Below, in pieces: positions 6,425 to 52,505 of a stretch of DNA of 64,000 nucleotides. The stretch is taken from positions 558,001 through 622,000 of the forward strand of contig NZ_JAAIVI010000017.1 of NCBI RefSeq assembly GCF_011008905.1, written 5' to 3'. The position numbers and the translations under genes were made by a program. A model generated the notes under the pieces. That model ran no database searches, was not told where the DNA came from, and was given only the letters and a program-made list of their open reading frames with translations. This DNA comes from Wenzhouxiangella sp. XN201 (GTDB lineage Bacteria > Pseudomonadota > Gammaproteobacteria > Xanthomonadales > Wenzhouxiangellaceae). Each line of letters starts with the position of its first letter. Position 1 is the stretch's first letter.

Positions 6425-7738
6425 ATGTCCGATCGTACCCGCGTGCTAACGCACTCCGCGCTGCTGGCCAGTCTGCTTGTACTGGCCGCCGCCGCGCCTC
6501 AGGCCCGAGCTGAACACCCTGGCGAACCCGATTCCGAACTCTGGGTTGATGGCCCGCTTGCGGTCAAGCCGGGCGGCGATCCGCGCTACCCGGATGCCGC
6601 AGTGGACTATCGCGGGCGCAAGATCTTCGTCTGGGACTCAAACGGAGGCGTGGCAGGCCAGGATGTTTTCATGCGGATTTTCGATGTCGGTGGCACGCCG
6701 CTGATCGATCCCGTCACGGTCAACACCTACACCGACTCCACACAGGACTTGGCGCGGATCGCGGTCGCGGCTGACAACTCGTTCCTGGTGATCTGGCAGA
6801 GCGGCGAGCCGCCCATGCCCGAGGATAACTTCGATCGCCGGGTGGTGCGCAGTCAGGCCTACGATGCCGACGGCCAAAAGGTCGGCAGCGAGCGAGTACT
6901 GAGTGCGCTGCTACCGGAAATTGCGATCGATATCAGTGCGAATGTCTCGGCCCTGGGTGGTGGCGGCTACGTGGCCTGCTGGGAGAGCGACAATACACAG
7001 ACTGCGGGCTTCAACAACATCACGATCCAGGCGCGTCTGGTTAACCCCGACGGCACGCCCAACGGTGATCAGTTTCAGGTCAACGCGCTGTATACCGGCT
7101 CCGTCCGCGATTGTGACGTGGCGCCGCTTGCGGATGGCGGGTTCGTCGTGGTCTGGGCCAATCCCGAGATTCATGCTCGTCGATTCGCCGCTAATGGCAC
7201 GCCCGTGGGTGACGAATTCCAGGTCAATACTATCGCCGTCAACGCTCCCCGTGACGAAAGCGCAGTGGCCTCGTCTGACGACGGTCGGGTGCTGATTGTC
7301 TGGACCGATTCCGAAGGAACCGACACCACTCCGGGAACTGTAGCCGAAGTCCGTGGGCGCCTCTTCGGTTCGACTTTGGCAGCGCTTGGGCCGGACTTCC
7401 GCATCAACTCTCTTGTTGACGGAAACCAGGACTGGCCGAAGGTGGCAGGGTATGGCGACAATTTCTTTGTCCTCTGGCAGAGCGAGTCAAGTGTCGGCCC
7501 GGACAACGAGCCCGATAGCATCGAGGGCCGGGTCGTCAATGGCGTTGATTCCTTCGCCGGTCCCCAGATGCTGATCAACACCTGGACTGTAAACAGTCAG
7601 GGATTCCCCGGAATCGGTGGCGTTGGCGATCGCGTGGCGATGGCCTGGCGCAGCCAGGACAACGCCGAAACCACTCAGAATGTCATTCAGGGTCTGGGTT
7701 GGCACGTCTGCGGTATCTTCTGCGACCGTTTCGAATAG
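6425..7738 (+). CDS. Exported repeat protein (propeller-like) ending in a C-terminal DRFE tail
   Basis: 437 residues from the ATG at 6425, which follows GGGAGAG; an upstream in-frame frame extension to 6359 lacks a ribosome site. The N-terminus (MSDRTRVLTHSALLASLLVL to AAAAPQARA) is a signal peptide. The mature part has six or so units, each with a strand ending in an aromatic-rich core: FLVIWQS, YVACWES, FVVVWAN, VLIVWTD, FFVLWQS, VAMAWRS, spaced 50-60 residues apart, which suggests a beta-propeller. The protein ends with GIFCDRFE, the same short tail seen on three other exported proteins of this window (see findings). No enzyme motif is visible; function unknown. Confidence 0.75.
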   Translation: MSDRTRVLTHSALLASLLVLAAAAPQARAEHPGEPDSELWVDGPLAVKPGGDPRYPDAAVDYRGRKIFVWDSNGGVAGQDVFMRIFDVGGTPLIDPVTVNTYTDSTQDLARIAVAADNSFLVIWQSGEPPMPEDNFDRRVVRSQAYDADGQKVGSERVLSALLPEIAIDISANVSALGGGGYVACWESDNTQTAGFNNITIQARLVNPDGTPNGDQFQVNALYTGSVRDCDVAPLADGGFVVVWANPEIHARRFAANGTPVGDEFQVNTIAVNAPRDESAVASSDDGRVLIVWTDSEGTDTTPGTVAEVRGRLFGSTLAALGPDFRINSLVDGNQDWPKVAGYGDNFFVLWQSESSVGPDNEPDSIEGRVVNGVDSFAGPQMLINTWTVNSQGFPGIGGVGDRVAMAWRSQDNAETTQNVIQGLGWHVCGIFCDRFE

Positions 7739-7817
7739 GGTGCGCAGCCAGAAATACTCGGGATTTTGACTTGCCGCGGGTGCGGGTGTAAGCTCGGGTA
7801 AGTCCCTGATGTGCGGT

Positions 7818-7833
7818 AAAAAGTATACTTTTT
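7818..7833. promoter_or_regulatory. Perfect 16-base AT-rich palindrome upstream of the subtilase gene
   Basis: The bases AAAAAGTATACTTTTT form a perfect palindrome 78 bases before the subtilase ATG. It could be a regulator-binding dyad or part of the promoter region; no T-rich terminator context follows on either strand beyond the palindrome itself. Function is inference. Confidence 0.4.
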
Positions 7834-7864
7834 GATTCATATTTTTAAATCGCCGGCAGGGCTT

Positions 7865-7875
7865 CCCCCCCCCCC
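7865..7875. repeat. Homopolymer of 11 C residues in the subtilase leader
   Basis: Eleven consecutive C residues lie 35 bases upstream of the subtilase start codon. Tracts of this length slip during replication and, when located in a promoter or leader, can switch expression. Length could also be a sequencing or assembly uncertainty. Confidence 0.6.
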
Positions 7876-7910
7876 AATGTAGCTTCAACATCCTTCTCGG
7901 GAGAGCGCAT

Positions 7911-10196
7911 ATGATTCGTTTCTTGATCACAACGGCCCTGGCGGCTGCTTTGATGCTCGCTATGGGCATATCGGAGGCGGCTGAAGACGGCCGCTATATC
8001 ATTACGGCCAAGAACGGAAATACCGCACAGGCACAGAGCGCCGTCATACAGAATCAGGGCAATGTTGTACGTACCCTTGATCGGCTTGGTGCCGTTGCAG
8101 CTTACTTGCCTGATCAGGCCGTTACTGCCCTTTCCAGTAATCCCAATTTCGATATCGAAGTTGACCAGCGCCGCTACCCATTCGGCGAAGTCTCACCTTA
8201 TGGCATTGCCATGGTCCAGGCGGACCAGGTCAGTGACAGCAATACCGCGAGTCGGACCGTCTGCATCATTGACTCTGGCATAGACGCCTCGCACGAAGAC
8301 CTGAGTGGAAATCTCAATCTTAGCGGAACCAACGATTCCGGCAGCGGGCAATGGTCAGTCGACGCTTGCGGTCACGGCACCCATGTGGCGGGGACCGTCG
8401 CAGCGATCGGGGGTAATGGCGTTGGCGTCGTGGGTGTGAACCCCAGCGGCCAGATTGGTCTGCATATCGTGAAGGTCTTCGGTGGTTCCGACTGCGCCTG
8501 GACTTATTCCTCGGACCTGGTCGACGCTGCCTATACCTGCGCTAACGCAGGTGCCAATATCATCAGCATGAGCCTGGGTTGTTCCGACAGCGGCCGTGGC
8601 GGACCTTTCAGCTGCGCCAGTTCGACCGAGGATGCAGCCTTTCAGGATCTGAACGACAACTATGGCATTCTCTCGATTGCAGCTGCTGGTAACGATGGCA
8701 CCACCAACAACAGCTATCCCGCCAGCTATGATTCAGTGGTTTCTGTGGCGGCTATTGACGACAACAAGGTCGTGGCCGATTTCTCGCAGAAAAATGCGGC
8801 GGTTGAACTGGCGGCGCCGGGTGTTGGCGTTCTGTCGACCGTCCCAATGGGCATGGGCTTCAATGTCAGCGTTACAGACAATTCCGACGGTGCCGGATTC
8901 GAAGCTGCAGCGATGCAGGGCACGACGACCGGTACAGCTTCAGGCGCGCTGGTCGATTGCGGTCTGGGCGAGAGTACCTGCCCCGGCGGCGGTGGTCAGG
9001 TCTGCCTGATTGAGCGCGGCAATATTTCCTTTGAAGACAAGACACTTGCCTGTGAAGCCGGTGGCGGTGTCGCCGCAGTTATCTACAACAATGTCAGCGG
9101 CATGCTGTTCGGCGCCCTGAGTGACCCCACGGCAACCACCATACCCTCGGTTGGGGTCTCAGACACCAGCGGAGCGCAACTGTCAGGTCGCACCGGCAAT
9201 ACCGTGGCGGTAACCGTGGAAAGCGGCAACTACGACTATTACAACGGCACCTCGATGGCAACGCCACACGTGTCAGCGGTTGCTGCGCTGGTCTGGAGTA
9301 CCGACACCACTTTGACCAACAACGATATCCGAAATGTTTTGCAGGTCACCGCGGAAGATCTGGGTGCTGCCGGGCGTGATGATTCTTACGGATACGGTCT
9401 CGTCCAGGCCAAGGCTGCGGTCGATTTAATCGGTGGTGGAACCACCAATACACCGCCAAGCGCCAGTTTCACGTTCAGCTGCACCGAGCTGACCTGCGAC
9501 TTCACCGATACTTCCAGCGACAGTGACGGCAGCATCAGCTCATGGAGCTGGGACTTCGGCGATGGCTCAAGCTCCACGGCGCAGAACCCGTCTCATACCT
9601 ACGGCGCGGACGGCACGTATACCGTCACGCTTACAGTGACTGACGATGATGGCGCCACTGACAGCGCCAGTTCCAGCGTAACCGTTTCAACCACCACCAC
9701 GGATGATCCGCCCACCGCGTCCTTCACATACGGCTGCACCGATCTCGGCTGTTCCTTCGACGGCACGAGTTCGTCGGACGACAACGGCATCTCCAGCTAC
9801 GCTTGGGCCTTCGGTGACGGCGCAACGGCTTCCGGCTCCACCGCCAGCCACACCTACGCGGCAGGCGGCACCTACACGGTGACCCTCACCGTCACCGACA
9901 GTGCCGGGCAGACGGACAGCTCGAGCCAGAGCGTTACGGTCAGCGAGCCGGTCAGCGATGGCATCACCCTGTCGGCCACGGGCTACAAGGTCAAGGGTCG
10001 TCACCACGCAGATCTCACCTGGGATGGCGCGTCGACGGATGTGGATGTCTACGTCAACGGTGCGTTCCACACCACCACCGCAAATGACGGCGCTTACACT
10101 TGGTCGAGTGAAAACCGCGGTGGCGGCAGCTATACTTTCGAAATCTGCGAGGCGGGCACCTCCACCTGCTCCAACACTGCCCAGGTCGTTTTCTGA
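7911..10196 (+). CDS. Secreted subtilisin-like serine protease (S8) with PA insert and two PKD domains
   Basis: 761 residues. Signal peptide at about 1-23 (cut after ISEAA), then an I9-type inhibitory propeptide (YIITAKNGNT onward) to about residue 85. The S8 catalytic domain carries the full triad: Asp121 in CIIDSGID, His155 in GHGTHVAG, Ser448 in NGTSMATPHVS. A PA (protease-associated) domain is inserted between His and Ser at about residues 310-430. Two PKD domains follow (about 507-590 and 602-680, each with W-x-FGDG and a final Y-x-V-T-L-T-V-x-D), then a fibronectin-like C-terminal domain with a cysteine pair. This is a typical exported, calcium-type degradative protease, likely leaving by the type II system. 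A strong terminator follows. Confidence 0.95.
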   Translation: MIRFLITTALAAALMLAMGISEAAEDGRYIITAKNGNTAQAQSAVIQNQGNVVRTLDRLGAVAAYLPDQAVTALSSNPNFDIEVDQRRYPFGEVSPYGIAMVQADQVSDSNTASRTVCIIDSGIDASHEDLSGNLNLSGTNDSGSGQWSVDACGHGTHVAGTVAAIGGNGVGVVGVNPSGQIGLHIVKVFGGSDCAWTYSSDLVDAAYTCANAGANIISMSLGCSDSGRGGPFSCASSTEDAAFQDLNDNYGILSIAAAGNDGTTNNSYPASYDSVVSVAAIDDNKVVADFSQKNAAVELAAPGVGVLSTVPMGMGFNVSVTDNSDGAGFEAAAMQGTTTGTASGALVDCGLGESTCPGGGGQVCLIERGNISFEDKTLACEAGGGVAAVIYNNVSGMLFGALSDPTATTIPSVGVSDTSGAQLSGRTGNTVAVTVESGNYDYYNGTSMATPHVSAVAALVWSTDTTLTNNDIRNVLQVTAEDLGAAGRDDSYGYGLVQAKAAVDLIGGGTTNTPPSASFTFSCTELTCDFTDTSSDSDGSISSWSWDFGDGSSSTAQNPSHTYGADGTYTVTLTVTDDDGATDSASSSVTVSTTTTDDPPTASFTYGCTDLGCSFDGTSSSDDNGISSYAWAFGDGATASGSTASHTYAAGGTYTVTLTVTDSAGQTDSSSQSVTVSEPVSDGITLSATGYKVKGRHHADLTWDGASTDVDVYVNGAFHTTTANDGAYTWSSENRGGGSYTFEICEAGTSTCSNTAQVVF

Positions 10197-10221
10197 TCTG
10201 AATCGCAGAAGGTAAGACTAC

Positions 10222-10250
10222 AAGGCGGCCCCCCGGGGCCGCCTTTTTTT
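10222..10250 (+). terminator. Rho-independent terminator after the subtilase gene
   Basis: Nine-base-pair stem AAGGCGGCC/GGCCGCCTT with a six-base loop (10222-10245), running into seven T residues (10244-10250), 25 bases after the stop codon. Confidence 0.9.
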
Positions 10251-10290
10251 AACTGCGCCGTTTCACGCCGGGTGGCTTCGCGATCTGACC

Positions 10291-11481
10291 CTATACGACC
10301 TGGCCGGCCGCATGGCCCGAAGCCCAGGCCCACTGGAAATTATGGCCACCGAGATGGCCGGTTACATCCACCACTTCGCCGATAAAGAAAAGGCCTGGGT
10401 GATCGCGGCATTCCATGGTTTTCGAAGACAGGGCATCGGTATCGATGCCCCCCAGCGTGACCTCGGCCGTGCGGTAGCCTTCGGTATCGGCCGGCCACAC
10501 GCGCCAGGGCTTGAGGTGGCCCGCGATATTGGCGATCTCCTCATCGCCGATCTCGGCCATCGGTCGGTCGCCGAGCCACAATTCGCACCACCGCTGAACC
10601 AGCCGGCGCGGCAGGTGCTCGACCAGCACGTTCTTGAGGTGAGTGCGCGGCCGCTGTCGACGCGCGTTGCGCAAGTGCTGGACCAGGTCGAGATCCGGCA
10701 GCAAGTCGATGGTTACCGGCTCGCCCGGCTGCCAGTACGACGACACCTGCAGCATGGCTGGGCCGCTCAGGCCCTTGTGAGTAAACAGGATGTTCTCCCG
10801 GAACGTGGCGCCACTGGCCTCGCTGGCGGTGTCGACCGATATCCCGGCGAGCCCTTCGATCTGGTCGAGCTTGCGGCCCTCCAGCACGAAGGGTACCAGG
10901 GCAGCCCGGGTCGGCTGGATGGCCAGTCCCAGCGAGCGGGCCAGGTCGAAACCGAATCCGGTTGCGCCCATGCGTGGAATCGAGTATCCGCCGGTGGCAA
11001 TCACCAGAGATTCGCAATGAATGGTTTCCGAGTCCACTTTCAGGCAATGCGGCGGGCCGAGCTGTTCAATCTCTGCCGGTGAGTGTGTACGAACCTCTAC
11101 TCCGACCGCTTCACATTCGGCCAGCAGCAGTGACACGATGTCTTTCGAGGATCGATCACAGAAGAGCTGCCCGAGTTTCTTTTCGTGGAAAGGCACGCCG
11201 TGCTTTTCAACCAGCGCAATGAAATCCCACGGCGTGTATCGGCTCAACGCCGACTTGCAGAAGTGCGGATTGGCCGAGAGAAAGTGCTCAGGCGTGGAGT
11301 GGATATTGGTGAAGTTGCAGCGCCCACCCCCGGACATCAGGATCTTCTTGCCAACCTTGTTGGCATGGTCGAGCACGAGCACGCCTCGCCCGCGTGCTCC
11401 GGCTTTCAGTGCACACATCAGTCCGGCAGCCCCGGCGCCGATGACGACGACGTCCCTGTCCGTGGTCGGGTTCCCTGTCAT
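10291..11481 (-). CDS. NAD(P)/FAD-dependent oxidoreductase, HI0933/YhiN (BaiN-like) family
   Basis: 396 residues, the usual size of the HI0933 flavoprotein family. The N-terminal Rossmann motif is VVIGAGAAGLMCALKAGARG (residues about 11-30), followed by 'KKILMSGGGRCNFTN', a family hallmark, and by 'LVIATGGYSIPRMGATGFGF'. The C-terminal FAD segment 'GLFFIGEVVDVTGHLGGHNF' and 'WAWASGHAAG' completes the fold. Physiological substrates of these proteins are mostly unknown; the related BaiN is a bile-acid flavoprotein. Convergent with the subtilase and divergent from the acetyltransferase gene. Confidence 0.92.
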   Translation of the reverse strand: MTGNPTTDRDVVVIGAGAAGLMCALKAGARGRGVLVLDHANKVGKKILMSGGGRCNFTNIHSTPEHFLSANPHFCKSALSRYTPWDFIALVEKHGVPFHEKKLGQLFCDRSSKDIVSLLLAECEAVGVEVRTHSPAEIEQLGPPHCLKVDSETIHCESLVIATGGYSIPRMGATGFGFDLARSLGLAIQPTRAALVPFVLEGRKLDQIEGLAGISVDTASEASGATFRENILFTHKGLSGPAMLQVSSYWQPGEPVTIDLLPDLDLVQHLRNARRQRPRTHLKNVLVEHLPRRLVQRWCELWLGDRPMAEIGDEEIANIAGHLKPWRVWPADTEGYRTAEVTLGGIDTDALSSKTMECRDHPGLFFIGEVVDVTGHLGGHNFQWAWASGHAAGQVV

Positions 11482-11556
11482 CTGACCAGAATGTTGTTTT
11501 GCTGTACATTAATCAAGCGGCAGGGCAAGATGTTGCTGGGAGTCTCAATAGCATTC

Positions 11557-12090
11557 ATGGCAGAGAAAAGAGCGCGAAAACAATCAGTTACGATCAGGAA
11601 GGCAGCCGAGGCCGACCTTCCGGTGCTTGTGGAGTTCCTCGCCAAACTTGCGCTCCACGTCGCTGGTTCTGGACCACGGAAGCTCAAGAAAAAAGAATCC
11701 CGGCGCCTTTTGGAAATTCTGCGCTCAGCGCTGGACGATGAGAACAAACGGTTGTTTGTTGCGGATAGCCCCGAGGCGGGTCTTGTCGGCATGGGATATG
11801 TCTATGTCTATCGCAGTCAGGGCATCTGGGAACAGGCAGAGCCGGAGGAGTATAGAACGGGCGTTATCGATGATGTGTGGGTTGAGCCCGATTTTCGCAG
11901 CCGCGGCGTTTTCAGCGCTCTGCTGAAGCATTTGGTGGCGTTTGCCGAAAGCCACAATGCGCATGAACTGGTCCTCGAATACTCGGCAACAAACAAGCAA
12001 GCCAAGGCGGTCTGGACGAAGTTGGGGTTCAAGACCACGGGCGTTCACGCCGCGGCACACACTTCGACCGTAAAAGCCGCCCTGGAGTAG
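11557..12090 (+). CDS. GNAT family N-acetyltransferase
   Basis: 177 residues from the ATG at 11557; an ATG at 11530 (nine codons earlier, preceded by AGGG) is an equally possible start. The first strand is SVTIRKAAEADLPVLVEFL, the central strand 'GVIDDVWVEPDFRSRGVFSALLKHL' includes the acetyl-CoA-binding R-x-x-G-x-F/A turn (FRSRGVFS), and the end 'YSATNKQAKAVWTKLGFKTTG' is the GNAT motif-B region. Acceptor substrate unknown. It sits about 70 bases upstream of the HDAC-like gene in the same direction, so an acetyl-transfer and a deacetylase function may be co-transcribed. Confidence 0.88.
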   Translation: MAEKRARKQSVTIRKAAEADLPVLVEFLAKLALHVAGSGPRKLKKKESRRLLEILRSALDDENKRLFVADSPEAGLVGMGYVYVYRSQGIWEQAEPEEYRTGVIDDVWVEPDFRSRGVFSALLKHLVAFAESHNAHELVLEYSATNKQAKAVWTKLGFKTTGVHAAAHTSTVKAALE

Positions 12091-12160
12091 CGATGGCATC
12101 GGCAACCTGTCACTCCAGAGGTTTCCCTGAATTACGATTTTTCGAAAGTGGGAGAGTCAC

Positions 12161-13279
12161 GTGATTGGCGATCGCAGCGTTCATGTGTTTTTTGACGAGA
12201 TCATGCTTGAGCACAACCCCGAAGTAGAGCTTCCCTTCCTGCCCAGTCGGGTGGAGAAGCGCGTCAGGACCGTTCTCGAGGGGCTGGATTTCAAATGGAG
12301 CTATCCCGAGCACCCGGGGCGCCTGTCCGAAATCAAAGCGCATCTGGATGAAAATCCCATTGCCGGGGTGCAGATTCGCACAGGTGCCAAACCGGCCAGC
12401 TATGACCAGCTTGCACGGGTGCATACAACCTCATACCTGGACCATATTTTCTCACTGGCGGGTCAACGCGCCTGGCTTGATCGGGATACAACAGCCGTTT
12501 CTCCCTCCAGTGTTGATGCAGCCACCGCGGCCGCCGGCAATGCAATTGCTGCTGTGGAAAGCGTTGTAAAGGGTGAGTCAGATAGTGCATTCGCGCTGGT
12601 TCGCCCGCCTGGCCACCATGCAGAGCCCGTGCGTGCGCGCGGTTTTTGTCTGCTCAACAATGTTGCCGTGGCTGCCGCGCATGCCCAGGCAAAGTTGGGC
12701 CTGGAGCGCGTCCTGATCATTGACTGGGACGCCCACCATGGCAATGGCACGCAGGATATTTTCTGGGCAGACCCGGATGTGCTGTTTTTCGACACGCACT
12801 GTGCCGCGCCGTTCTATCCCGGTTCGGGACACCTGGAAGAAGTGGGGGATGGCCTGGGGGAGGGCTACACCATCAACGTGCCCCTTCCGGAGTCCGCCGG
12901 GGACATTGCCTTCGAGAAGGTGTTTCGAGAAATTCTCGTGCCGGCGGCCGAATACTTCAAACCCGAGCTGGTGCTTGTTTCAGCCGGATTTGATCCGCAC
13001 CGAAACGATATGGCACTGAACCTGACCTACGATGGTTTCAAGGTGATCACGCGGATCGTGCAGGAGATTGCCGATCAGCACTGCCAGGGGCGTCTGGCCC
13101 TTGTTCTGGAAGGCGGTTATAACCTCACCTCGCTTTCTCATGGGGCGCATGCCGTTCTGGAAGTGCTGGCAGGCGGTGACGTCCCGAAACTGATGGAGCC
13201 CGGTGTCCGGGAGGTCGAAGAGGCCGTAGAGTTCCACCTTGCAGCGTTTAACGAAGAGGATGTTTCCGGTTCGGGCTGA
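12161..13279 (+). CDS. Histone-deacetylase family protein (acetylpolyamine amidohydrolase-like)
   Basis: 372 residues, starting at a GTG with GGGAG ahead of it. The zinc-dependent deacetylase active site is complete: the tandem His152-His153 in RPPGHHAEP, the metal ligands Asp190 and His192 in DWDAHHGNGTQ, Asp278 in SAGFDPH, and the transition-state Tyr320 in LEGGYN. Bacterial members remove acetyl groups from polyamines, acetoin-pathway compounds or small amides rather than histones. A 36-residue lead-in before the core (to EHPGRLSEI) is typical. It lies directly after a GNAT gene, compatible with an acetylation/deacetylation pair (inference). Confidence 0.93.
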   Translation: MIGDRSVHVFFDEIMLEHNPEVELPFLPSRVEKRVRTVLEGLDFKWSYPEHPGRLSEIKAHLDENPIAGVQIRTGAKPASYDQLARVHTTSYLDHIFSLAGQRAWLDRDTTAVSPSSVDAATAAAGNAIAAVESVVKGESDSAFALVRPPGHHAEPVRARGFCLLNNVAVAAAHAQAKLGLERVLIIDWDAHHGNGTQDIFWADPDVLFFDTHCAAPFYPGSGHLEEVGDGLGEGYTINVPLPESAGDIAFEKVFREILVPAAEYFKPELVLVSAGFDPHRNDMALNLTYDGFKVITRIVQEIADQHCQGRLALVLEGGYNLTSLSHGAHAVLEVLAGGDVPKLMEPGVREVEEAVEFHLAAFNEEDVSGSG

Positions 13280-43631: not shown

Positions 43632-46214
43632 ATGAACAACCGACTACAGCCAGTTCGGCGCCGGACATCGTTGACGGTGAGGATTTTATTGGCCGCTGTG
43701 GTCTTCAGTCTTACATTTACATCGCTGGCAATGAACCTTCCGGGCCCGAATGCTTCGAGCCATGGAGAGCCGGTCCACGCAAGGTCGCTCGATAGCACCT
43801 TTCGAACGGTGGCAGGTTCCGCTGGGAGTCTCTCCGGGAAGTTTGTGTATCTGTCACCGGGACTCGGATGGATTGATGACTCTTCGACTGATATCTGGCG
43901 GACCCAACGAGGCAATACCCACAACATTGTTGAAGACTTTCTCCACGCCGAGATGGTGAACCAGTACCTGATCGAGTACCTGACCCGCGCTGGCGCCTAT
44001 GTCTTTCCTGTGCGAGAGCGGGACCTCCAGACTGCCATGGTGATCGTTGACGATGGAGATCTCGATGATGTTCCCTCCAATGGACTGTACGCGGAGTCAG
44101 GGGATCTCAGCCTTTTTACCGGTTCAGGTTTGGGGGGGTTCGACAACTTTCAGGCCCCTTACAGCCCCACCACCAACCCTTTCGAAGCACCGGAAGGAAC
44201 CTCTCGTCTCCTGACGACGGCAGCATCCGAAACTGCGCGAGCGACCTGGACGCCGGTTCTCCCCCAGTCGGGCCATTACGAGGTCTACGTCTCCTATCTC
44301 TCCGACGGATCCCGTGCGAGCGACGTACATTACGTCGTCACACACTCCGGCGGCGAGGCCCACGTCCGGATCGACCAGCAGCGTCATGGATCGACCTGGA
44401 TCTCCCTGGGACGCTATCACTTCGAAGCCTGGTTCGATTCCGACGTTTCCGACCGGGCATCGGTCGCATTGCTCAATGACTCGACGGAGCCCGGCTCCAA
44501 CGTGAGTCTTGATGCGGTCCGCTTCGGCGGTGGAATGGGGGACGTTGTGGGCCAAAATTTCTTTGAAGTGTCCGGAGAACCGCGGTGGGAAGAAGCCGCC
44601 CGAACCTACGTGCAGTTCATGGGGGCGCCGTCGTCTGTCTACGACTTCAGCCCCGTGAATGACGTGACCCCTCGTTCTCGCTACGCCGCCTGGCAGAATC
44701 AGGATGGTGAGGACGCGGTCTACGTGTCGATCAGATCGCACGGGTATGAGGGTGCTCGGGGGACCGAGAGTTTCGTCTACAGCGCCAATCCACCGGACGG
44801 CAGCACCTACGATCCTACCCAATCCTCGCCGGGTTCCGTGGAGCTGATGACCGCCATTCACAACGAGGTCATCGCGGACCTCCGCTCCGGTTGGGACTCG
44901 ACATGGGCCGACCGTGGGATCTCCTCAGCTTACTTTGGTGAATTGAATCCCGCCAACAACGATGAGATGCCTTCGTCAATGATCTACCTGGGATTCCATG
45001 GCAACGTGCAGGACGCCGAGGCGATGTCGGATCCACGATTTCGCCGACTGGTCGCCCGGAGCATTTACCAGGGGATCGTGAAATACTTTGCGAACCGTGA
45101 TGGAGCTCCCTTTGTACTTCTTCCCGAGCCCCCGGAAGCGCTCTCGGCCAGAGGGCTCCCCGACGGCACGATTAGGGTGGATTGGTCGTCCTCGCCCACG
45201 GACGACCTGGACCTGCTCGGCGATCCAGCTACGAGCTACCGAGTCCACATCAGTGACGACGGCCAGGGGTTTCGGCTTGCGGGCGAGACGTCCGGCAACC
45301 AGTTCGATCTCACGCCTCCCGAGCCGGGTGAGATTGTGTACCTTAGGCTGACCGCAGTGAACGCCGGCGGGGAATCGCTACCCACCGAGGTTCTCAGCGT
45401 GCGGAGCGCCCATGCGGCCGACGCGAAGATCCTTCTTGTGCAAGGGTTCGATCGTCTCGAGCGGAGCCTCATGCCCTTGGAGGATATGAACTACGCGGCT
45501 CTGGGAATGGTCTTTCGAATGGACCTCGACCGGATGAATCGGGGCGACTACCTTCTCCAGTACGCGGAGGCCCTGAAAACGTGGAATGTCTCATTCGACT
45601 CCTCCTCCAACGAGGCGGTGACCAATGGTCGCGTTGGACTGGACCCTGAAACCTACAATGCGATTTTCTGGAGCCTCGGTCGAGAGTCGACGGCCGACGA
45701 GACTTTCGACACGACGGAGCAGACTTTCGTGACCTCCTATCTTAACGAAGGTGGTTCGTTCTTTGCGTCGGGAAGTAACCTTGGATGGGACCTTGATTTT
45801 AAGGGCTCGGCTGCTGACCGGGCCTTCTTCGAGGACGTGTTGGGCGCGAACTACGTAGCTGATGATGCGGGAGTTTACGAAATATTCGGGGCACCTGGCA
45901 CCCGATTCCACGCCCTTGAGCTTACATTCGACGATGGAAGTCACGGGATTTACGATGTCCGCTACCCCGACGTCCTCTCCCCCGCCCTGGATGGTGCCCA
46001 AATCTGCTTATCGTATCCCTTGGATATTGGCGATGCCTGCGTTCAGTACGACGCAGGGGACTATCGGGTTCTTACGCTCGGGGTGCCTTTCGAATCCATC
46101 GTGAGTGGTACAAAACGAGCCGACCTCATGGAACGGATTCTCCTGACCCTCAGAGTTGTCGACAAGCCCATCTTCCAGGACAGGTTTGAAGACGGGGCGC
46201 TGATTAGCCCGTAA
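43632..46214 (+). CDS. Exported amidase_3-like/golvesin-domain protein with Fn3 domain and a C-terminal DRFE tail
   Basis: 860 residues with a signal peptide at about 1-36. Residues about 70-500 resemble N-acetylmuramoyl-L-alanine amidases (amidase_3) split by a golvesin-type insert (YEVYVSYLSDGSRASDVHY, about 215-290). Around the insert are SPGLGW (residues 75-80), NIVEDFLHAEMVNQYLIEYL, VYVSIRSHGYEG and SSMIYLGFHGN. The first zinc ligand of the family is the His of SPGHGW; here it is Leu78 (codon CTC, one base from CAC), so catalysis is doubtful. A fibronectin type III domain (about 495-590) and a C-terminal alpha/beta region with LLVQGFDRLER follow. The protein ends IFQDRFEDGALISP. Confidence 0.75.
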   Translation: MNNRLQPVRRRTSLTVRILLAAVVFSLTFTSLAMNLPGPNASSHGEPVHARSLDSTFRTVAGSAGSLSGKFVYLSPGLGWIDDSSTDIWRTQRGNTHNIVEDFLHAEMVNQYLIEYLTRAGAYVFPVRERDLQTAMVIVDDGDLDDVPSNGLYAESGDLSLFTGSGLGGFDNFQAPYSPTTNPFEAPEGTSRLLTTAASETARATWTPVLPQSGHYEVYVSYLSDGSRASDVHYVVTHSGGEAHVRIDQQRHGSTWISLGRYHFEAWFDSDVSDRASVALLNDSTEPGSNVSLDAVRFGGGMGDVVGQNFFEVSGEPRWEEAARTYVQFMGAPSSVYDFSPVNDVTPRSRYAAWQNQDGEDAVYVSIRSHGYEGARGTESFVYSANPPDGSTYDPTQSSPGSVELMTAIHNEVIADLRSGWDSTWADRGISSAYFGELNPANNDEMPSSMIYLGFHGNVQDAEAMSDPRFRRLVARSIYQGIVKYFANRDGAPFVLLPEPPEALSARGLPDGTIRVDWSSSPTDDLDLLGDPATSYRVHISDDGQGFRLAGETSGNQFDLTPPEPGEIVYLRLTAVNAGGESLPTEVLSVRSAHAADAKILLVQGFDRLERSLMPLEDMNYAALGMVFRMDLDRMNRGDYLLQYAEALKTWNVSFDSSSNEAVTNGRVGLDPETYNAIFWSLGRESTADETFDTTEQTFVTSYLNEGGSFFASGSNLGWDLDFKGSAADRAFFEDVLGANYVADDAGVYEIFGAPGTRFHALELTFDDGSHGIYDVRYPDVLSPALDGAQICLSYPLDIGDACVQYDAGDYRVLTLGVPFESIVSGTKRADLMERILLTLRVVDKPIFQDRFEDGALISP

Positions 46215-46356
46215 CCGGTGGCATCTAGCGCGACGACAACTATTAGTGATGGAGTGGTGGTGCTGCTTGAATGAAGTCGGCTTTTCCTTTTCCTGACTGT
46301 TCTGATCGGGGAATCGCTAGTGCGCCAGCGCGACCCAAAAAAGTCGTTGAACCTGC

Positions 46357-49161
46357 CTAATTCTGAGTGATTCGCGAATTATGTTTCACTTGCTCCAGGA
46401 GCGCCTGGGCGCGATCAATACGATCGGTGTGCAGGGGGTACTTTTCCGTAAGACCTTCGAGTGCCCGGCCGGCCAGTTCAGCGGCACGTTGGTCATTGCC
46501 CTCATGACTCCAGTACTCTGCCTCGACGATCTGCACGAAATATGCCCAGGGGTGGGTGGGTGATAATTCGGCGCCTTGGGCGGCCCAGTCCAGCGCCTGG
46601 CGTGCGCAGGGCATATCGTCTTGTTGCATGCAGATCGAGGCGAGCGTTGCTAGCTGTTCGGCCCAGTAGATTACACCAATATCGCCGCGCTCAACCTTCC
46701 CCTGGATGGATTGCTCGAGCTTCTTCCGGGCTGCATCCAGATTACCTTCCAATAGGTCAAATTCCCAACCGTTCCACTGCCAGGACTTGTAAAATTCGCT
46801 ATCGATCCCTCTCGACTCACCGTATAACCTGAGGTTTTCGATGAACTTCGACCGGGCTGCTTCGATGCGCCCCGCGCGAAGCAGTCCCAGGCTCATATTC
46901 TGCTGCCATTCGAAAAGTTGGAATGCGTCGGGCTCGTAGATCTCACGGGCTATGTCAAGTGCCGTTTCGTAACTCTCGACTGAGGCATCGTAATCACCTA
47001 TGGCAAACAGCCGACGAGCTTCATTGCTCAATGTCGAGGCTCTGTAGAGGCGGCTTTCGGGCTTCTCCGGGTCCACGGATTCCAGTACAAGTCGGTTGTA
47101 GCGAGCGGCCTGATCCATCTGGCCGATGTCAGCGTGCATGACTCCCAGGCTGGCATATGAAGTCAAAAGATTCGCCGAGTCTGCCCCCTCCACTTCGGAA
47201 GTGATCCGAACGTGTTCATTGAAGTTATGGATGGCATCTTCGAACTGCCGATTCCGATATGAGAGCGTGGCCAAGGTGGCGTAGGCCGCAGCGACATCGC
47301 TGTGCAGCTCTCCGAAATTGGCGCGGGCGATGAACAGGGCGCGCTCGATCGGTTCACGTGCTTCGTCGATTTTGTGGAGTGCGAGTCGAGACCAGCCGAT
47401 CTGGCGCAGTGGATGGATCAACAGGTGAGTGGCCGGACTGATGTGCTCCTCCAAGATCGCCACGGCACGACTCGCATGCTCGATCGCTTCTTCGTGTCTG
47501 TGCGAATTGCTGTAAGTAAAGGCAATCTCGCGGTGGGTGTCGGCGATTGTCCGATAGTCGCGGGGTTGTGATTGTTCGAGCAATGCAAGAGCTTCGTTGA
47601 AGCGAGCGATGGCATCATCGTGCTCTTGCTCGGCCTGGAGGATGTTCCCGCGCTCGATATGGTAGCGCGCCAGAAGGCCCACATCGAAGTCATGGCGCTC
47701 GACGAGTGCTGATGCGTCGTCGAGCAACTCGCGCATTGCATCCACTTCGATGCCGCGACTGGCCAGGTCAAGCCGGTCCAGTAGAATTTGGAATGCAGTT
47801 TCAGGCGATTCGGAGTGGTCGACCAGTTGGGCGGCCTCTTCCAGGGTCGCCCTGGCCGCGTGTAGATCGCCGAGCACCATTTCAATAGTGCCTTGAACGC
47901 GGAGCAGCTCCGCGCGAGCGCCGGATTCCGTGGAAAGCTCGCGGCGCACGACCGCGACAGCCTCCTCCAGGAGGGCATGAACATGGGCGGCGCCGCCGGA
48001 TTGACGTTCGGCATTGGCGTCGATGAGGCCCGTGAAAGTCTCCGAGACCAGGTCCGACATGGCCTGAAGGACGCGGTTGGATGTCTCCGCACGTTGTTCG
48101 GCAAGCATTCGTGCTTCGGATAATGAGTGGGTGTACCACAGTCCGCTGACCAGAATGATTGCCACCGATAGTGCGGAGACCAGGCTAGCCGCCTTGTTTC
48201 TGGCCGCGAGCTTGCGTAGTCGATATCCGGTTCCCGGTCTGGCGGCGCTGATCGGGAAACCGCCCAGCCAGGCTTCCAGGTCGCCTTTCAGTGCGTTTGC
48301 GTCCCGGTATCGCTCATTCGGGGACGCCCGGAGACATTTTTCGATGATCAGAAGCAACTCATCGGGAAGCTTCGTCCTTACCGACTCCGGAAGTGTCACC
48401 TCCTGCCGATTGGCAGCCCGCGTAATCGCATCCGAAAGATCGTCATACAGCTTTTGAGATTCTCCGGTGAGCAACTCCAGAAGCAGAAAGCCCAGCTGAT
48501 AGATATCGGAACCGACCGTGATTTCCTTCCCTAGCAGCTGTTCCGGACTGGCATAGCGCGGCGTCATTGGGGTGATCTGGCCAGCGTCGGTGAAATCTGA
48601 TTGCAGATCCTTCGCGATTCCGAAGTCCAGCAGTTTTGGCTGCCCCTCGGAATTGACAAGTACATTGGAAGGTTTGATGTCCCGGTGTACGATCAGTCGG
48701 GCATGGGCGTAGGCCAGTGCTTCCACAACGCCAATCATCATCCGGACGATTGTTTTCGGGCTCGCGCGATTAGTTTGACACCACTCATCGACTGGTACGC
48801 CATCGATCAGTTCCATCACGATGTATGGCCAGCCTTCCTCGGTGACCTGGGCATCATAGAGTTGGCCGATATTCGGGTGGTTGAGCGAGGCGAGCACACT
48901 TTGTTCGCGCAGGAAGCGTTCCCGGTATTCCGGATTCATCGAGCTGGCAGGCGATAACTTGATCGCCACGTCGCGGCTGAAGCTTCCGTCGATGCGCTCG
49001 GCCCGATAGACTCGGCTCATTCCGCCCTCAGCGATCAGTGCCGTGATGCGGTAGTTCCCCAGTGTTCGGTCTATCAGGGCCTGGCCATCCGATCCGGCCA
49101 TCTCGAGAAAGAGGCGAAGGCCGCCACCCGTTTCAAAATCCCCGTTGCCCTGCTTGCTCAT
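46357..49161 (-). CDS. Transmembrane Ser/Thr protein kinase with TPR repeats
   Basis: 934 residues from the ATG at 49161. The Hanks-type kinase domain covers about 30-300: glycine loop LIAEGGMSRVYRAE, the lysine in DVAIKL, catalytic HRDIKPSNVLV and DFG in KLLDFGIAKDL, so all key residues are intact. One membrane helix lies at about 330-350 (LVSALSVAIILVSGLWY), then a long helical TPR region to the end. The upstream sigma gene ends TGA and this gene begins ATG one base later (TGA-A-ATG), so translation is coupled. In related ECF sigma/kinase pairs the kinase phosphorylates and activates the sigma factor (established for ECF43-type systems such as EcfP in Vibrio). Confidence 0.93.
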   Translation of the reverse strand: MSKQGNGDFETGGGLRLFLEMAGSDGQALIDRTLGNYRITALIAEGGMSRVYRAERIDGSFSRDVAIKLSPASSMNPEYRERFLREQSVLASLNHPNIGQLYDAQVTEEGWPYIVMELIDGVPVDEWCQTNRASPKTIVRMMIGVVEALAYAHARLIVHRDIKPSNVLVNSEGQPKLLDFGIAKDLQSDFTDAGQITPMTPRYASPEQLLGKEITVGSDIYQLGFLLLELLTGESQKLYDDLSDAITRAANRQEVTLPESVRTKLPDELLLIIEKCLRASPNERYRDANALKGDLEAWLGGFPISAARPGTGYRLRKLAARNKAASLVSALSVAIILVSGLWYTHSLSEARMLAEQRAETSNRVLQAMSDLVSETFTGLIDANAERQSGGAAHVHALLEEAVAVVRRELSTESGARAELLRVQGTIEMVLGDLHAARATLEEAAQLVDHSESPETAFQILLDRLDLASRGIEVDAMRELLDDASALVERHDFDVGLLARYHIERGNILQAEQEHDDAIARFNEALALLEQSQPRDYRTIADTHREIAFTYSNSHRHEEAIEHASRAVAILEEHISPATHLLIHPLRQIGWSRLALHKIDEAREPIERALFIARANFGELHSDVAAAYATLATLSYRNRQFEDAIHNFNEHVRITSEVEGADSANLLTSYASLGVMHADIGQMDQAARYNRLVLESVDPEKPESRLYRASTLSNEARRLFAIGDYDASVESYETALDIAREIYEPDAFQLFEWQQNMSLGLLRAGRIEAARSKFIENLRLYGESRGIDSEFYKSWQWNGWEFDLLEGNLDAARKKLEQSIQGKVERGDIGVIYWAEQLATLASICMQQDDMPCARQALDWAAQGAELSPTHPWAYFVQIVEAEYWSHEGNDQRAAELAGRALEGLTEKYPLHTDRIDRAQALLEQVKHNSRITQN

Positions 49162-49162
49162 T

Positions 49163-49819
49163 TCACAATCCCTTGCCAGACGTCTCGGCATTTCCGTCTT
49201 TGCTTGCTCCTAAGAGTGCCTGCTTTAACCAGGCGCGAGAACGTGCCCAGTCGCGCTCTATAGTGCGTTCGGAAAGGCCCAGGATTCCAGCCGTTTCCCG
49301 ATTCGTGAACCCTCCGAAATACCGGCACTCGAACACTGCAACCAATCGCCGATCGTGCTTGGCCAGTTGGTCCATCAAACGATCGAGCTCGATCAGCCAT
49401 TCCGGATCGCCCTCAGCCGACAGTTCGTTTTCCTCCAGCGTCAGGGCGCGCATGCCGCGGCCCCGTTTGTCCCTGAGCCGGCGCCGAGCGTTGTCCACCA
49501 GGAGATGCCGCATCGTGGTCGCACAGGCTGCGTAGAAGTGATTGCGGTCCTTCCAGTGATGCACGCCGCCTTCGGCAAGCTTGCAGTAGGCCTCGTTGAC
49601 AAGTCCGGTGGTGTTCAGGGTTTCGCTGGGGTGGCGCTGGCGGAGTTGGATGTGGGCTAATTCGCGAAGCTGCGGGTAGATGAGCTCGACCAGCCGATCG
49701 AACGAATCCACCTGTCCTGACCGGTAGGCGGCAAGTAGCTCGGTAACGCTGCGTGTGTCCTCGGACAAGGCCTGCTCCGGCTCCCTGGTCCCGGAAACGA
49801 GTATAGCAATCGACCGCAT
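49163..49819 (-). CDS. ECF-type RNA polymerase sigma factor (kinase-linked class)
   Basis: 218 residues. Region 2 begins TELLAAYRSGQVDSFDRLVE and includes the typical LTT/LVNEAYCKLAE of the TIGR02999-like (acidobacterial-type) ECF class; region 4 is the helix-turn-helix ending 'FTNRETAGILGLSERTIERD'. The absence of an anti-sigma factor and the coupled Ser/Thr kinase gene fit the phosphorylation-activated ECF group. Its start codon overlaps a promoter-like block (49818-49848) that is repeated at 50755-50785, in front of the FG-GAP gene. Confidence 0.92.
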   Translation of the reverse strand: MRSIAILVSGTREPEQALSEDTRSVTELLAAYRSGQVDSFDRLVELIYPQLRELAHIQLRQRHPSETLNTTGLVNEAYCKLAEGGVHHWKDRNHFYAACATTMRHLLVDNARRRLRDKRGRGMRALTLEENELSAEGDPEWLIELDRLMDQLAKHDRRLVAVFECRYFGGFTNRETAGILGLSERTIERDWARSRAWLKQALLGASKDGNAETSGKGL

Positions 49820-49848
49820 GGCGGCTCCAGAGCGCCGATGTCGTGAGT
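49818..49848. promoter_or_regulatory. Promoter-like block, copy A (divergent sigma/secreted-protein region)
   Basis: The 13 bases ATGGCGGCTCCAG at 49818-49830 and the 10 bases TGTCGTGAGT at 49839-49848 recur exactly, with the same 8-base gap, at 50755-50767 and 50776-50785. Flanking bases upstream are also similar. Oriented to the plus strand, the second block lies about 92 bases before the ATG at 49940. This has the layout of an ECF promoter but no experimental support. Confidence 0.5.
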
Positions 49849-49939
49849 CTTATTTGAGGCGGAGTGCTGCCAAGTTCTGCTGATCAGGCTTGTGCGGGTG
49901 CCGGTGAACGTGGGATGCGCTGGGAGTCTCTGGAATCTA

Positions 49940-50674
49940 ATGAAATGCCTATCTTACAAAGTGCTTTTGTTGATCTTGGTATGCCCTTGCGTTTCCAGCC
50001 TGGCGCAGGCCCCTCATGCCGGTACGATCATCTACTTCAATCCTTGCTCTGGAGGTTGTAGCTTCAACCAGGGCCTTGAAGACAACTCCATCACCAATAT
50101 CTCCTCGATCATTGGGAGTTCAGCGACTTTCACTGAGTTTCAACATGGTTCCGAACTCTGGGCGGAAGTCTTGCAGTGCCTGAGTCAAAAGTTCTCTCCT
50201 TTCGACGTAGTTGTGACCGACAAGGATCCGGGTTCCGTTGCGCACAGTGAAGTCGTGGTGGCAGGCTCGCCCGACGAAGGTGGATTTCCTAACAGTATCG
50301 GCGCCGTGGCGCCCTTCGACTGCAGTTTCATCGAGAATGCGCCAGCGTTTACCTTCGCCAACACCTACGGAAGTTCCGAGCCGATCTGTGAAGCTGCCGC
50401 AGCTATGGCTGCCCACATGTTCAGTCTCGACACTCATTACCATTGCGAAGACCTGATGACCTATCTCACTGAGGACTGTGGGCCCAAACGGTTTGTTGAC
50501 CAGGAAATGCAGTGTGGTGAGCACGAACCCAGGGCTTGCCAGTGTGGTGGGAGCACAGAGAATTCATTCGCGGTGCTTCTCGAAAAGCTTGGTCCCGCCC
50601 TGCCGCTGATTTTCGCAGATAGATTCGAAACCCGGTCGGAAGAGACGTGGAGGCAGGCTGTTCCGAAGAATTGA
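49940..50674 (+). CDS. Exported protein, degenerate zincin-like, with a C-terminal DRFE motif
   Basis: 244 residues from the ATG at 49940. Signal peptide about 1-23 (LLLILVCPCVSSLAQA). The mature part, cysteine-rich, resembles a family of exported zinc peptidases seen in myxobacteria, whose site is H-E-x-x-H-x-x-G-L-D-H followed by D-P-M-T-Y and a CGE/RxC region. Here the corresponding segment reads EAAAAMAAHMFSLDTHYHCEDLMTYL split as AAAMAAHMFSLDTHYH and EDLMTYL: the first His-Glu pair is absent and the spacing is shifted by one. A binding or structural role is more likely than proteolysis. The protein ends LIFADRFETRSEETWRQAVPKN with an extra 14 residues after the DRFE motif. Confidence 0.65.
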   Translation: MKCLSYKVLLLILVCPCVSSLAQAPHAGTIIYFNPCSGGCSFNQGLEDNSITNISSIIGSSATFTEFQHGSELWAEVLQCLSQKFSPFDVVVTDKDPGSVAHSEVVVAGSPDEGGFPNSIGAVAPFDCSFIENAPAFTFANTYGSSEPICEAAAAMAAHMFSLDTHYHCEDLMTYLTEDCGPKRFVDQEMQCGEHEPRACQCGGSTENSFAVLLEKLGPALPLIFADRFETRSEETWRQAVPKN

Positions 50675-50754
50675 CCGTGAAGAGGGAATTGGCTTCAGGA
50701 GGCACGGCCCCACTTCTGCTCCCCGGTCCTGGAAGCGAGTTCTCAATGGATCGG

Positions 50755-50785
50755 ATGGCGGCTCCAGTGGGATTGTGTCGTGAGT
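50755..50785. promoter_or_regulatory. Promoter-like block, copy B, upstream of the FG-GAP gene
   Basis: Second exact copy of the ATGGCGGCTCCAG / N8 / TGTCGTGAGT pattern at 49818-49848. It ends only 8 bases before the ATG at 50793, so either the transcript is nearly leaderless or the real start codon lies further in, for example GTG at 50865. Confidence 0.5.
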
Positions 50786-50792
50786 ATGGAAT

Positions 50793-52505
50793 ATGGAGAA
50801 AACATGTGAGGGGGCCAATAGCGCTTGCTGCAAGACTCGGTGGTGTCGGCCCGCTTGGTCGCATGTGTTTTCTATCGGGCTGCTTCGGACCTGCCTGGCC
50901 ACGACGGCTTCATGTGTGCTGTTTCTTGGACTGAGTCCCGCCGTCCTCGCCGAAGTCTTCCCGCCCCATTTCTATATCGGAGGCGTCGACGGCAGCAACG
51001 GTTTTCAACTCATAGGCGAGAACGAAGGCGATAGGTCGGGCTATTCTGTCAGTCGTGCTGGTGACGTCAATGGGGACGGCAGGGGCGACGTGATAATCGG
51101 AGCCTTTCTTGCCGATGTGGATGGCCACTCGACCGCAGGCCGTGTCTATGTCGTATTTGGAGGTGATGGATCTTTCCCGGATACGCTTGAACTCGATGCA
51201 TTGGATGGATTCAATGGTTTTCGTTTGGAAGGTGTTGCGGTAGGCGACCATGCAGGCAATTCAGTCAGCGCGGCTGGCGATGTCAATGGCGACGGTTTTG
51301 ATGACCTGATCGTCGGGGCTAATCTGGCGGACCCCAATGGAAAGTCGCGAGCGGGCAGCAGCTACGTGGTATTCGGTCGGGACTCGGGCTTCCCGGCGAC
51401 GTTCAGCCTGGATAGTCTTGATGGCGCCAGTGGTTTTCGCCTTGATGGTGAGGCACCCCTGGACGGTTCCGGGGGTTCGGTAAGCGCTGCTGGTGATATC
51501 AATGGTGACGGCATCGATGATCTCATCATTGGAGCACACGGTGCCGATCACAACGGTGACGGCTCTGGCAGCAGCTATGTCGTGTTTGGTCGTACCGCGT
51601 TCGCGGCCGTTGAGGCTCTGGGTAATCTGAATGGGACCAACGGCTTTCGCGTGGACGGCGCAGCCGCGGGCGATCGCTCCGGTAAATCCGTCAGCGCCGC
51701 CGGCGATGTCAATGGCGATGGCATTGACGATTTGATCATCGGTGCGTTTCGAGCGGCACCCAATGGCAAAGCGGATGCCGGAAGCGCTTTCTTGGTATTT
51801 GGCCGAGAGACGCCATTTCCGGCTACGCTCAACCTGGGAGACCTGGATGGCACGGACGGTTTTCGTATCGACGGCGTGGCAACTGGTGACTTTACCGGAA
51901 ATAGCGTCAGTGGCGCGGGCGACGTCAACGGTGACGGGATAGACGAAGTGATCATCGGAGCAGATCGTTCAGATCCCGGGGGTTTGGAGGATGCGGGAAG
52001 TGCTTACGTGGTTTTCGGGCGAGAGGGATCGTTTCCGGCGACAATCTTGTTAAGCGGGTTGAACGGACTCAATGGATTTCGCCTGGCCGGTATGGCTGCA
52101 GGCGATCGAACCGGCAATTCGGTCAGCGCGGCCGGTGATGTCAATGACGACGGAGTCGACGACTTAATCGTGGGGGCGTTTGATGCCGATGATCCCAGTA
52201 TCAGTGCCACTGATTGTGGCCTCAGCTATCTGGTGTTCGGTCATCGAAATGAGTTCCCTGCATCAGTCGATCTCGGAACTCTGGACGGCAAAAACGGCCT
52301 TCGGCTGATTGGGGGATATCCCGGTGACTTTTCCGGTCGCTCGGTCAGTGGTGCCGGCGATGTTAACAACGATGGTATCGATGACATCATCATCGGGGCG
52401 GACCTCTTTGAACTCGACGACTGGATTGCCAGCGACATCGGCAGCAGCTATGTCGTGTTCGGCCGCTCGGACAAATTGTTCACGGACCGCTTCGAGTCGA
52501 AGTGA
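50793..52505 (+). CDS. Secreted FG-GAP (integrin-alpha-like) repeat protein with a C-terminal DRFE motif
   Basis: 570 residues from the ATG at 50793; a GTG at 50865 would give a more compact signal peptide (VFSIGLLRTCLATTAS to SPAVLA). From about residue 70 to 560 there are seven FG-GAP units, each with NGDG/NDDG calcium loops (GDVNGDGRGDVIIGA, GDVNGDGFDDLIVGA, GDINGDGIDDLIIGA, and so on) and a final 'SYVVFG'. They fold as a calcium-binding beta-propeller like the integrin alpha head. The protein ends KLFTDRFESK. Location extracellular or surface; ligand unknown. It lies next to the ECF/kinase module and behind the duplicated promoter-like block. Confidence 0.88.
   Translation: MEKTCEGANSACCKTRWCRPAWSHVFSIGLLRTCLATTASCVLFLGLSPAVLAEVFPPHFYIGGVDGSNGFQLIGENEGDRSGYSVSRAGDVNGDGRGDVIIGAFLADVDGHSTAGRVYVVFGGDGSFPDTLELDALDGFNGFRLEGVAVGDHAGNSVSAAGDVNGDGFDDLIVGANLADPNGKSRAGSSYVVFGRDSGFPATFSLDSLDGASGFRLDGEAPLDGSGGSVSAAGDINGDGIDDLIIGAHGADHNGDGSGSSYVVFGRTAFAAVEALGNLNGTNGFRVDGAAAGDRSGKSVSAAGDVNGDGIDDLIIGAFRAAPNGKADAGSAFLVFGRETPFPATLNLGDLDGTDGFRIDGVATGDFTGNSVSGAGDVNGDGIDEVIIGADRSDPGGLEDAGSAYVVFGREGSFPATILLSGLNGLNGFRLAGMAAGDRTGNSVSAAGDVNDDGVDDLIVGAFDADDPSISATDCGLSYLVFGHRNEFPASVDLGTLDGKNGLRLIGGYPGDFSGRSVSGAGDVNNDGIDDIIIGADLFELDDWIASDIGSSYVVFGRSDKLFTDRFESK

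Follow-up and report, generated by a model that had tools for sequence, protein, structure and literature searches.

PEP-CTERM/exosortase and LPXTG/sortase are sorting tags of the kind in which one reader serves many cargoes. For type II secretion systems (T2SS), the closest described cases involve the PDZ domain of a GspC protein: secretion of VesB needs the PDZ domain of EpsC (PMC12369372), and the PDZ domain of OutC is bound by a disordered loop of PelI (PMC7949064, PMC12369372). A linear T2SS signal shared by unrelated cargoes is not known, as far as the available portions of four publications go (PMC9251779, PMC5003817, PMC7949064, PMC12369372). Here, we analyse a stretch of 64,000 nucleotides from Wenzhouxiangella sp. 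XN201 ("the window"), in which four exported proteins carry the same short peptide near their C-termini, with the consensus [ILV]-F-x-D-[GR]-F-E. Carried by exported proteins, this peptide is a genuine terminal tag that is conserved at the protein level and specific to one order, and it is inherited largely together with a second T2SS whose GspC is of the PDZ type (T2SS-A and GspC-A hereafter). A literature search for DGFE/DRFE strings, sorting tags, a linear T2SS signal, the GspC PDZ domain and the T2SS of Lysobacter, which covered mostly titles and the openings of abstracts outside the subscription journals, retrieved nothing on the tag.

A short terminal tag on exported proteins

A six-frame pattern search for the core F-x-[DN]-[GR]-F-[ED] returns exactly 4 sites in the window, each in one of four open reading frames (ORFs), P0001 to P0004, in which F-x-D-R-F-E lies 0, 7, 14 and 2 residues, respectively, ahead of the stop:

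6359..7738, + strand: P0001, exported (signal peptide by eye), 459 amino acids, no Pfam match, the tag being its very end
7715..7735, + strand: tag of P0001, I-F-C-D-R-F-E, stop immediately after (core 7718-7735, + strand)
43632..46214, + strand: P0002, exported (signal peptide by eye), 860 amino acids, Golvesin_C and Amidase_3 domains, fn3 below the curated cut-off
46170..46190, + strand: tag of P0002, I-F-Q-D-R-F-E, R codon AGG, stop 7 residues on (core 46173-46190, + strand)
49892..50674, + strand: P0003, exported (signal peptide by eye), 260 amino acids, no Pfam match
50609..50629, + strand: tag of P0003, I-F-A-D-R-F-E, R codon AGA, stop 14 residues on (core 50612-50629, + strand)
50793..52505, + strand: P0004, exported (signal peptide by eye), 570 amino acids, FG-GAP repeats
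52476..52496, + strand: tag of P0004, L-F-T-D-R-F-E, stop 2 residues on (core 52479-52496, + strand)

The first-pass annotation of the window had pointed to a shared C-terminal core on four exported proteins with signal peptides, and both parts of this claim hold: the core lies at most 14 residues from the stop in all four, and a signal peptide is visible by eye in 4/4. Of its labels for the protein bodies, amidase (Amidase_3 in P0002) and FG-GAP (P0004) are borne out, whereas "propeller-like" for P0001 and "zincin-like" for P0003 find no Pfam match. It was also right to set the tag apart from PEP-CTERM and LPXTG signals, as no transmembrane segment or basic tail follows it. Searched with NCBIfam release 20.0 up to E = 1, the tails of P0001 to P0004 remain without a match, a search in which the HMMER filters may lose very short matches. 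Two further results on P0004 were not used, namely an AlphaFold model of the protein alone (mean pLDDT, the predicted local distance difference test, of 34) and a search in plasmids (10 records, none covering >80% of the query).

The concentration of the tag at protein ends was evaluated in 464 kb including the window, with a rough gene set made up of the 372 genes that a simple caller predicted and of P0003, which the caller overlooked; the set lacks the gene of the tag L005. F-x-D-[GR]-F-E occurs within the last 30 residues of 7/373 predicted genes, while 1000 shuffles of the 373 protein ends give a mean of 0.014 matches and a maximum of 1; the 124,199 residues upstream of the ends of the same predicted proteins contain 0 matches. 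Six-frame translation of this region yields 11 sites: the 7 tails, the mature N-terminal tag L005, and 3 sites in frames that look non-coding. In the whole genome (G000; 3.13 Mb, 22 contigs), 32 sites are found at the DNA level, 30 with CGN or GGN codons and 2 with AGR, compared to 0 sites for the reversed pattern. The reversed pattern and the shuffled ends exclude a chance origin of the tag, and the enrichment at C-termini that the first-pass annotation proposed to check is confirmed.

Most of the genomic sites are at protein ends: 23/32 have a stop no more than 25 residues away, 1 lies just behind a signal peptide, and 8 are elsewhere. Clean exported proteins account for 19 of the 23 C-terminal sites, with a signal peptide visible by eye in 19/19; the doubtful ones are L006, L024 and L025, which are short or doubtful ORFs, and L021, which we take to be the end of a cytoplasmic aspartokinase. 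One of the 8 sites elsewhere, L018, is presumably a lysyl-tRNA synthetase, and cytoplasmic look-alikes such as L018 and L021 may be the source of part of the background in tag-free genomes. An export heuristic applied to 6 tagged proteins classifies 5 as exported and 1 as cytoplasmic owing to the choice of start, a signal peptide being visible in the latter as well; as far as further transmembrane anchors were scanned, i.e., in these six, the tagged proteins have the signal peptide and lack the additional anchor, as expected of T2SS substrates. Among the tagged bodies are FG-GAP and beta-helix proteins, a subtilase, an amidase and, below the cut-off, a weak match to matrixin, while many have no family; being unrelated by Pfam, the bodies exclude a single paralogue family, in line with the earlier annotation. 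A further exported-looking protein (G000:C17:535244-536269) has the terminus R-I-F-G-S-S-F-D-G-S-N, which may be a tag that has degenerated or varied beyond the strict pattern.

Form and placement were then read from 91 sites within the order Lysobacterales (32 from this genome and 59 from others) and from 30 sites outside it. No more than 25 residues separate the tag from the C-terminus in 69/91 sites of the order, vs 2/30 outside. Behind these 69 C-terminal tags there are 0 residues in 15 cases, at most 5 in 56, and never more than 21; the residue preceding F is I, L or V in 64/69. The tag lacks the subsequent transmembrane helix and basic cluster that characterize PEP-CTERM, GlyGly-CTERM and MYXO-CTERM signals. 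Three tags stand at the mature N-terminus, a few residues past the signal peptide: L005 (G000:C17:520741), L098 (G005) and L280 (G152); L052, L264, L267 and the out-of-order L130, which had received the same automatic label, were dropped by eye. In L036, L083, L103 and L109, the tag is located between domains of multidomain exported proteins (by eye). The first-pass annotation had suggested a sorting or processing signal: a recurring signal on unrelated exported proteins is indeed present, but since the tag is also found at the mature N-terminus and between domains, it is not a strictly C-terminal or a processing signal.

Some of these proteins have further features of their own. L005 and L098 look by eye like repeat or propeller proteins, and the arrangement in L036, L083, L103 and L109 resembles an older terminus behind which another domain was attached. 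A G-G-F-W stretch precedes the tag in small ORFs that recur across families (L297, L296:4723-5145, L092, L271, L278), with a variable linker and a constant tag.

Within the tags, Arg is encoded by all four CGN and both AGR codons, Gly by all four of its codons, and Phe, Asp and Glu by both codons each. Synonymous codon choice is broadly like that of a genome sample, and the conserved entity is therefore the peptide.

The tag is common across Lysobacterales, with 0 to 84 sites per genome in 200 genomes of the order, and no comparable excess is seen outside. The pattern search in the genome and its relatives that the first-pass annotation recommended thus gave a positive result, and its vague memory of F-x-D-G-F-E ends in related bacteria proved correct, the G variant being found in relatives. 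In a phylum survey of 398 genomes, 10 of them from the same order including the present one, genomes outside the order reach at most 11 sites (control 2) and often slightly exceed the reversed control, as read from the table without summation. A general bacterial motif was rejected on account of these low counts and of the rarity of C-terminal placement among the out-of-order sites. The strict DNA pattern for I-F-A-D-G-F-E-stop retrieves 27 stretches from a collection of 84,980 genomes; the named genera among them are Dokdonella, Pseudofulvimonas, Chiayiivirga, Tahibacter, Marinicella and Wenzhouxiangella, and the remainder are metagenome-assembled genomes of Lysobacterales, Xanthomonadales, Lysobacteraceae and Rhodanobacteraceae, plus 2 genomes titled just Gammaproteobacteria or Pseudomonadota.

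A second type II secretion system and its co-occurrence with the tag

The co-occurring transporter or protease gene that the first-pass annotation called for was sought among T2SS parts, and a second T2SS was found on the transporter side. GspD was searched in 42 genomes, 18 picked as tag-rich and 24 as tag-poor; two GspD copies over cut-off are found in 18/18 and 6/24, respectively (the six being G023, G047, G061, G131, G064 and G084). In a tree of 60 GspD sequences from 37 of the 42 genomes (G047 left out; quick method without bootstrap, some long branches), a separate clade "A" of 20 rows comprises one copy from each of the 18 tag-rich genomes plus those of G084 and G064. The other clade contains the near-universal second GspD, which, from its gene order, we take to be Xps-type. 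The second GspD copies of the genomes G023 (L210), G131 (L216) and G061 (L213), from the tag-poor family f2, fall beside clade A and not inside it, and the GspC homologue of G061 has a PDZ-like end.

In the present genome, T2SS-A is encoded at two loci:

G000:C20:484.9-490.7 kb: T2SS-A genes gspC-D-E-F
G000:C17:433.8-439.0 kb: T2SS-A genes gspG-H-I-J-K-L with an M-like and an N-like gene
C17:437766-438260: M-like gene behind gspL, unscored

GspD, E, F, G, I, J, K and L exceed their NCBIfam cut-offs, which GspC (85.3 of 101.6 bits) and GspH (78.6 of 80) narrowly miss, and the N-like gene has no NCBIfam match. All components of a complete system (GspC, D, E, F, the pseudopilins G-K, L and M) are accordingly present in this genome, M being represented by the M-like gene. 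A second GspG over cut-off is found in 7/7 genomes with GspC-A and in 0/5 without. GspC-A, which is present in 19/20 T2SS-A loci (the twentieth is broken by a contig end), has HR and C-terminal PDZ domains; its best solved matches in profile comparison are OutC, PulC and EpsC, with both OutC domains (7.2e-42) and the EpsC PDZ structure 2i4s being matched by profile A1. For the Xps-type GspC of the present genome, the GspC match is only partial and a PDZ match is absent. In XpsC of Xanthomonas, a single helix replaces the PDZ domain, according to the available portion of PMC11981180.

A GspC-A profile built from 19 rows was run on the 200 genomes of the order and separates them into 101 with a best match at E < 1e-40 and 99 with 3.6e-24 or weaker, mostly PDZ-only. 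Tags were called abundant if they exceeded the reversed control by at least 8 sites, a threshold set after seeing the counts. Among the 139 genomes that are ≥95% complete, abundant tags occur in 55/60 with GspC-A vs 3/79 without (Fisher 6e-29), although the genomes are related and not phylogenetically independent, so that P values overstate the association. The corresponding figures are 84/101 vs 11/99 in all 200 genomes, and 54/58 vs 1/64 in the ≥95% complete genomes if family f8 is omitted. The median tag excess in the ≥95% complete genomes is 22 with GspC-A and 1 without, the latter group having 194 sites in total vs 88 in the control.

The association also holds within families that are largely devoid of tags. 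In the tag-poor f2, abundant tags are found in 1/1 genome with GspC-A (one genus that has both) and in 0/34 without. The f12 genomes with GspC-A (genera g18, g28, g57 and g65) have excesses of 4, 17, 36 and 50 and are all tagged, compared to a median of 1 in the 29 f12 genomes without. The largest excess among these 29 is 8, in G189, where 0/4 sampled sites look like exported tails and 1 lies within 25 residues of a stop. In G012, a statistical discordant with 10 sites and a control of 6, 4/4 sampled sites are C-terminal tags. A presumably cupredoxin-like cargo of G012 was sought in 38 genomes in order to find untagged orthologues in the absence of T2SS-A, and turned up in only 4, all of them with T2SS-A.

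The G/R difference at position 4 and candidate reader residues

Position 4 of the core is G nearly everywhere. R occupies it in 521 of the 559 sites of genus g1 (16 genomes including the present one), in 40/45 sites of g6 and in 10/45 of g7 (one genome each), vs 15/196 in other genera of the same family (8 genomes) and 63/1109 in other families (33 genomes), all counts including background sites. At other places in this genome, a hydrophobic residue is preceded about equally often by D-G and by D-R (245 vs 267), so the R at position 4 does not reflect a general bias. The same change across dozens of unrelated proteins in one lineage is what would be expected of one shared, trans-acting reader. 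The gene tree of GspC-A joins g6 to the G-type g3 (support 92/77) and puts the mixed g7 inside g1, so more than one G/R switch may have taken place; by the GspD tree, g6 and g7 instead lie together among g1.

A candidate counterpart on the side of the reader is position 279 of GspC-A (numbering of the G000 GspC ORF), which lies within the PDZ domain. It is acidic in 16/17 R-genomes, 1/22 G-genomes and 1/2 mixed genomes, and an acidic residue here could pair with the arginine of the tag in a salt bridge, which we regard as a lead only. The residue is R in G178 and in the tag-poor G084, which has kept T2SS-A and has 1 site. G084 (L187) and G178 (L331) belong to the same genus as the present genome, have few tags and keep T2SS-A, and share a long-branched GspC. 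Six GspC-A columns, 3 of them in the PDZ domain, fully separate R from G genomes. At the level of residues, a coupling of tag and GspC-A is suggestive only.

A probable recruitment signal for T2SS-A and rival explanations

Given the co-occurrence, the tag is probably a linear recruitment signal for T2SS-A. Cargo proteins would cross the inner membrane by means of their signal peptides and present the tag as a putatively flexible terminal extension, usually at the C-terminus and in some cases at the mature N-terminus or where two domains join. In the periplasm, the tag would be read by one shared receptor of the lineage-specific T2SS-A, most likely by binding to the PDZ domain of GspC-A, possibly with a contribution from periplasmic N-domains of GspD-A; the secretin GspD-A would then let the folded cargo out to the cell surface or into the medium. 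The full version of this model, in which an order-wide T2SS uses a linear, portable, end-placed tag [ILV]-F-x-D-[G/R]-F-E that is recognized by the GspC PDZ domain of the same system, and in which tag and reader changed together from D-G-F-E to D-R-F-E, is put forward tentatively, as somewhat less than an even bet.

Several observations weigh against recruitment by T2SS-A. Two GspD copies alone are not diagnostic, as 6/24 tag-poor genomes have them. The f8 genomes G063, G097 and G171 are clearly tagged (3, 3 and 2 of 4 sampled sites) without GspC-A or a full GspD-A, and tags are few in 5/6 f8 genomes that have GspC-A; likewise, genus g43 (G064, G143, G167) and G084 possess GspC-A yet only 0 to 3 sites. 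Seven more tagged genomes lack GspC-A (G163, G183, G173, G048, G059, G118, G182), all of them drafts that are 77-94% complete, with an apparent GspD-A fragment in G118 only. On present data, T2SS-A is thus neither strictly necessary nor sufficient for tags; recent losses, gaps, or takeover by another T2SS could explain the exceptions. Moreover, co-occurrence is not mechanism: any gene of the same distribution would fit, and the partner screen covered T2SS parts alone. With up to 21 residues behind it, the tag is a misfit for a strict PDZ ligand that is bound by its C-terminal carboxylate. As to position 279, the pattern comes mostly from one clade, G178 is an R-type exception that has R instead of an acid there, and GspD-A also has separating columns (14 of 489, several acidic), so that position 279 does not single out GspC. 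The available portions of the literature point in the same direction: in Vibrio, VesB alone among nearly two dozen T2SS substrates significantly needs the PDZ domain (PMC12369372), a linear universal T2SS signal is described as lacking (PMC12369372), and a review excludes a linear T2SS signal (PMC9251779).

The same co-occurrence of tag and GspC-A would be expected if the tag served surface retention, i.e., if proteins were exported via a T2SS or otherwise by features of their bodies, and the tag docked non-covalently on an outer-membrane or matrix receptor that is inherited with T2SS-A. Placement at either end suits a docking peptide, and any single reader would be enough for the concerted G/R difference; however, the GspC of T2SS-A already offers a peptide-binding type of domain, and we consider surface retention unlikely. 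Still less can be said for a CTERM-type processing, in which the protein would be cut at the tag and anchored by its own dedicated protease or transpeptidase. The C-terminal position of most sampled tags (69/91) is compatible with it, but there is no room behind most of them for a transmembrane segment or a basic cluster, 15/69 end exactly at E, and cutting at the mature N-terminal tags L005, L098 and L280 would leave the body unanchored; a C-terminal cut or a cleaved CTERM-type tag is difficult to square with tags that occur at either end, and this alternative appears improbable.

A further explanation manages without a dedicated reader. A hydrophobic residue followed by F-x-D-[GR]-F-E could form a strand, and the tag might therefore be a structural or folding element, such as a last beta-strand or cap, or else a degradation tag for mislocalised proteins. 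The unrelated bodies, the concentration in one order, the clade-wide change at one tag position and the co-occurrence with T2SS-A all speak against this, which makes it very improbable. A DNA-level repeat resembling an uptake signal, translated by happenstance, would account for a short motif with many copies per genome, but has a next to negligible probability, since synonymous sites vary in a broadly genome-like manner and the copies are mostly in one frame at protein ends.

If recruitment by T2SS-A holds true, the T2SS cargo lists of a whole order could be read from sequence alone, and the tag could serve as a portable secretion tag. The choice of cargo by T2SSs is an open question, which a single hexapeptide on dozens of unrelated proteins, largely in step with one T2SS, would make testable by peptide binding and grafting. 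The switch from G to R throughout a clade would offer a natural example of many ligands changing in concert with their one reader.

Among known systems, the pairs OutC-PelI and EpsC-VesB share with the proposed system an exported, folded cargo with signal peptide and a PDZ-bearing GspC, and in PelI it is a short disordered loop that is bound (available portions of PMC7949064 and PMC12369372); the signals known from them reside in one or few proteins and are described as structural or composite, whereas here one linear consensus is found on dozens of unrelated proteins and binding is a prediction. The GlyGly-CTERM/rhombosortase system, which works with the T2SS in Vibrio, likewise combines a recurrent C-terminal tag on exported proteins, one reader and many cargoes with a link to type II secretion (PMC13393428, available portion). 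However, its tag has a transmembrane helix and is processed (PMC12369372, available portion), while the present tag lacks a helix or basic tail and also occurs N-terminally. Unlike PEP-CTERM/exosortase and LPXTG/sortase signals, it has no transmembrane segment, basic cluster or LPXTG, and can form the very last residues of a protein. The C-terminal domain of type IX secretion is comparable as a C-terminal signal for an outer-membrane secretion machine, but it is an Ig-like domain (PMC11285876, available portion), whereas the signal described here is a hexapeptide, with a T2SS as its putative partner.

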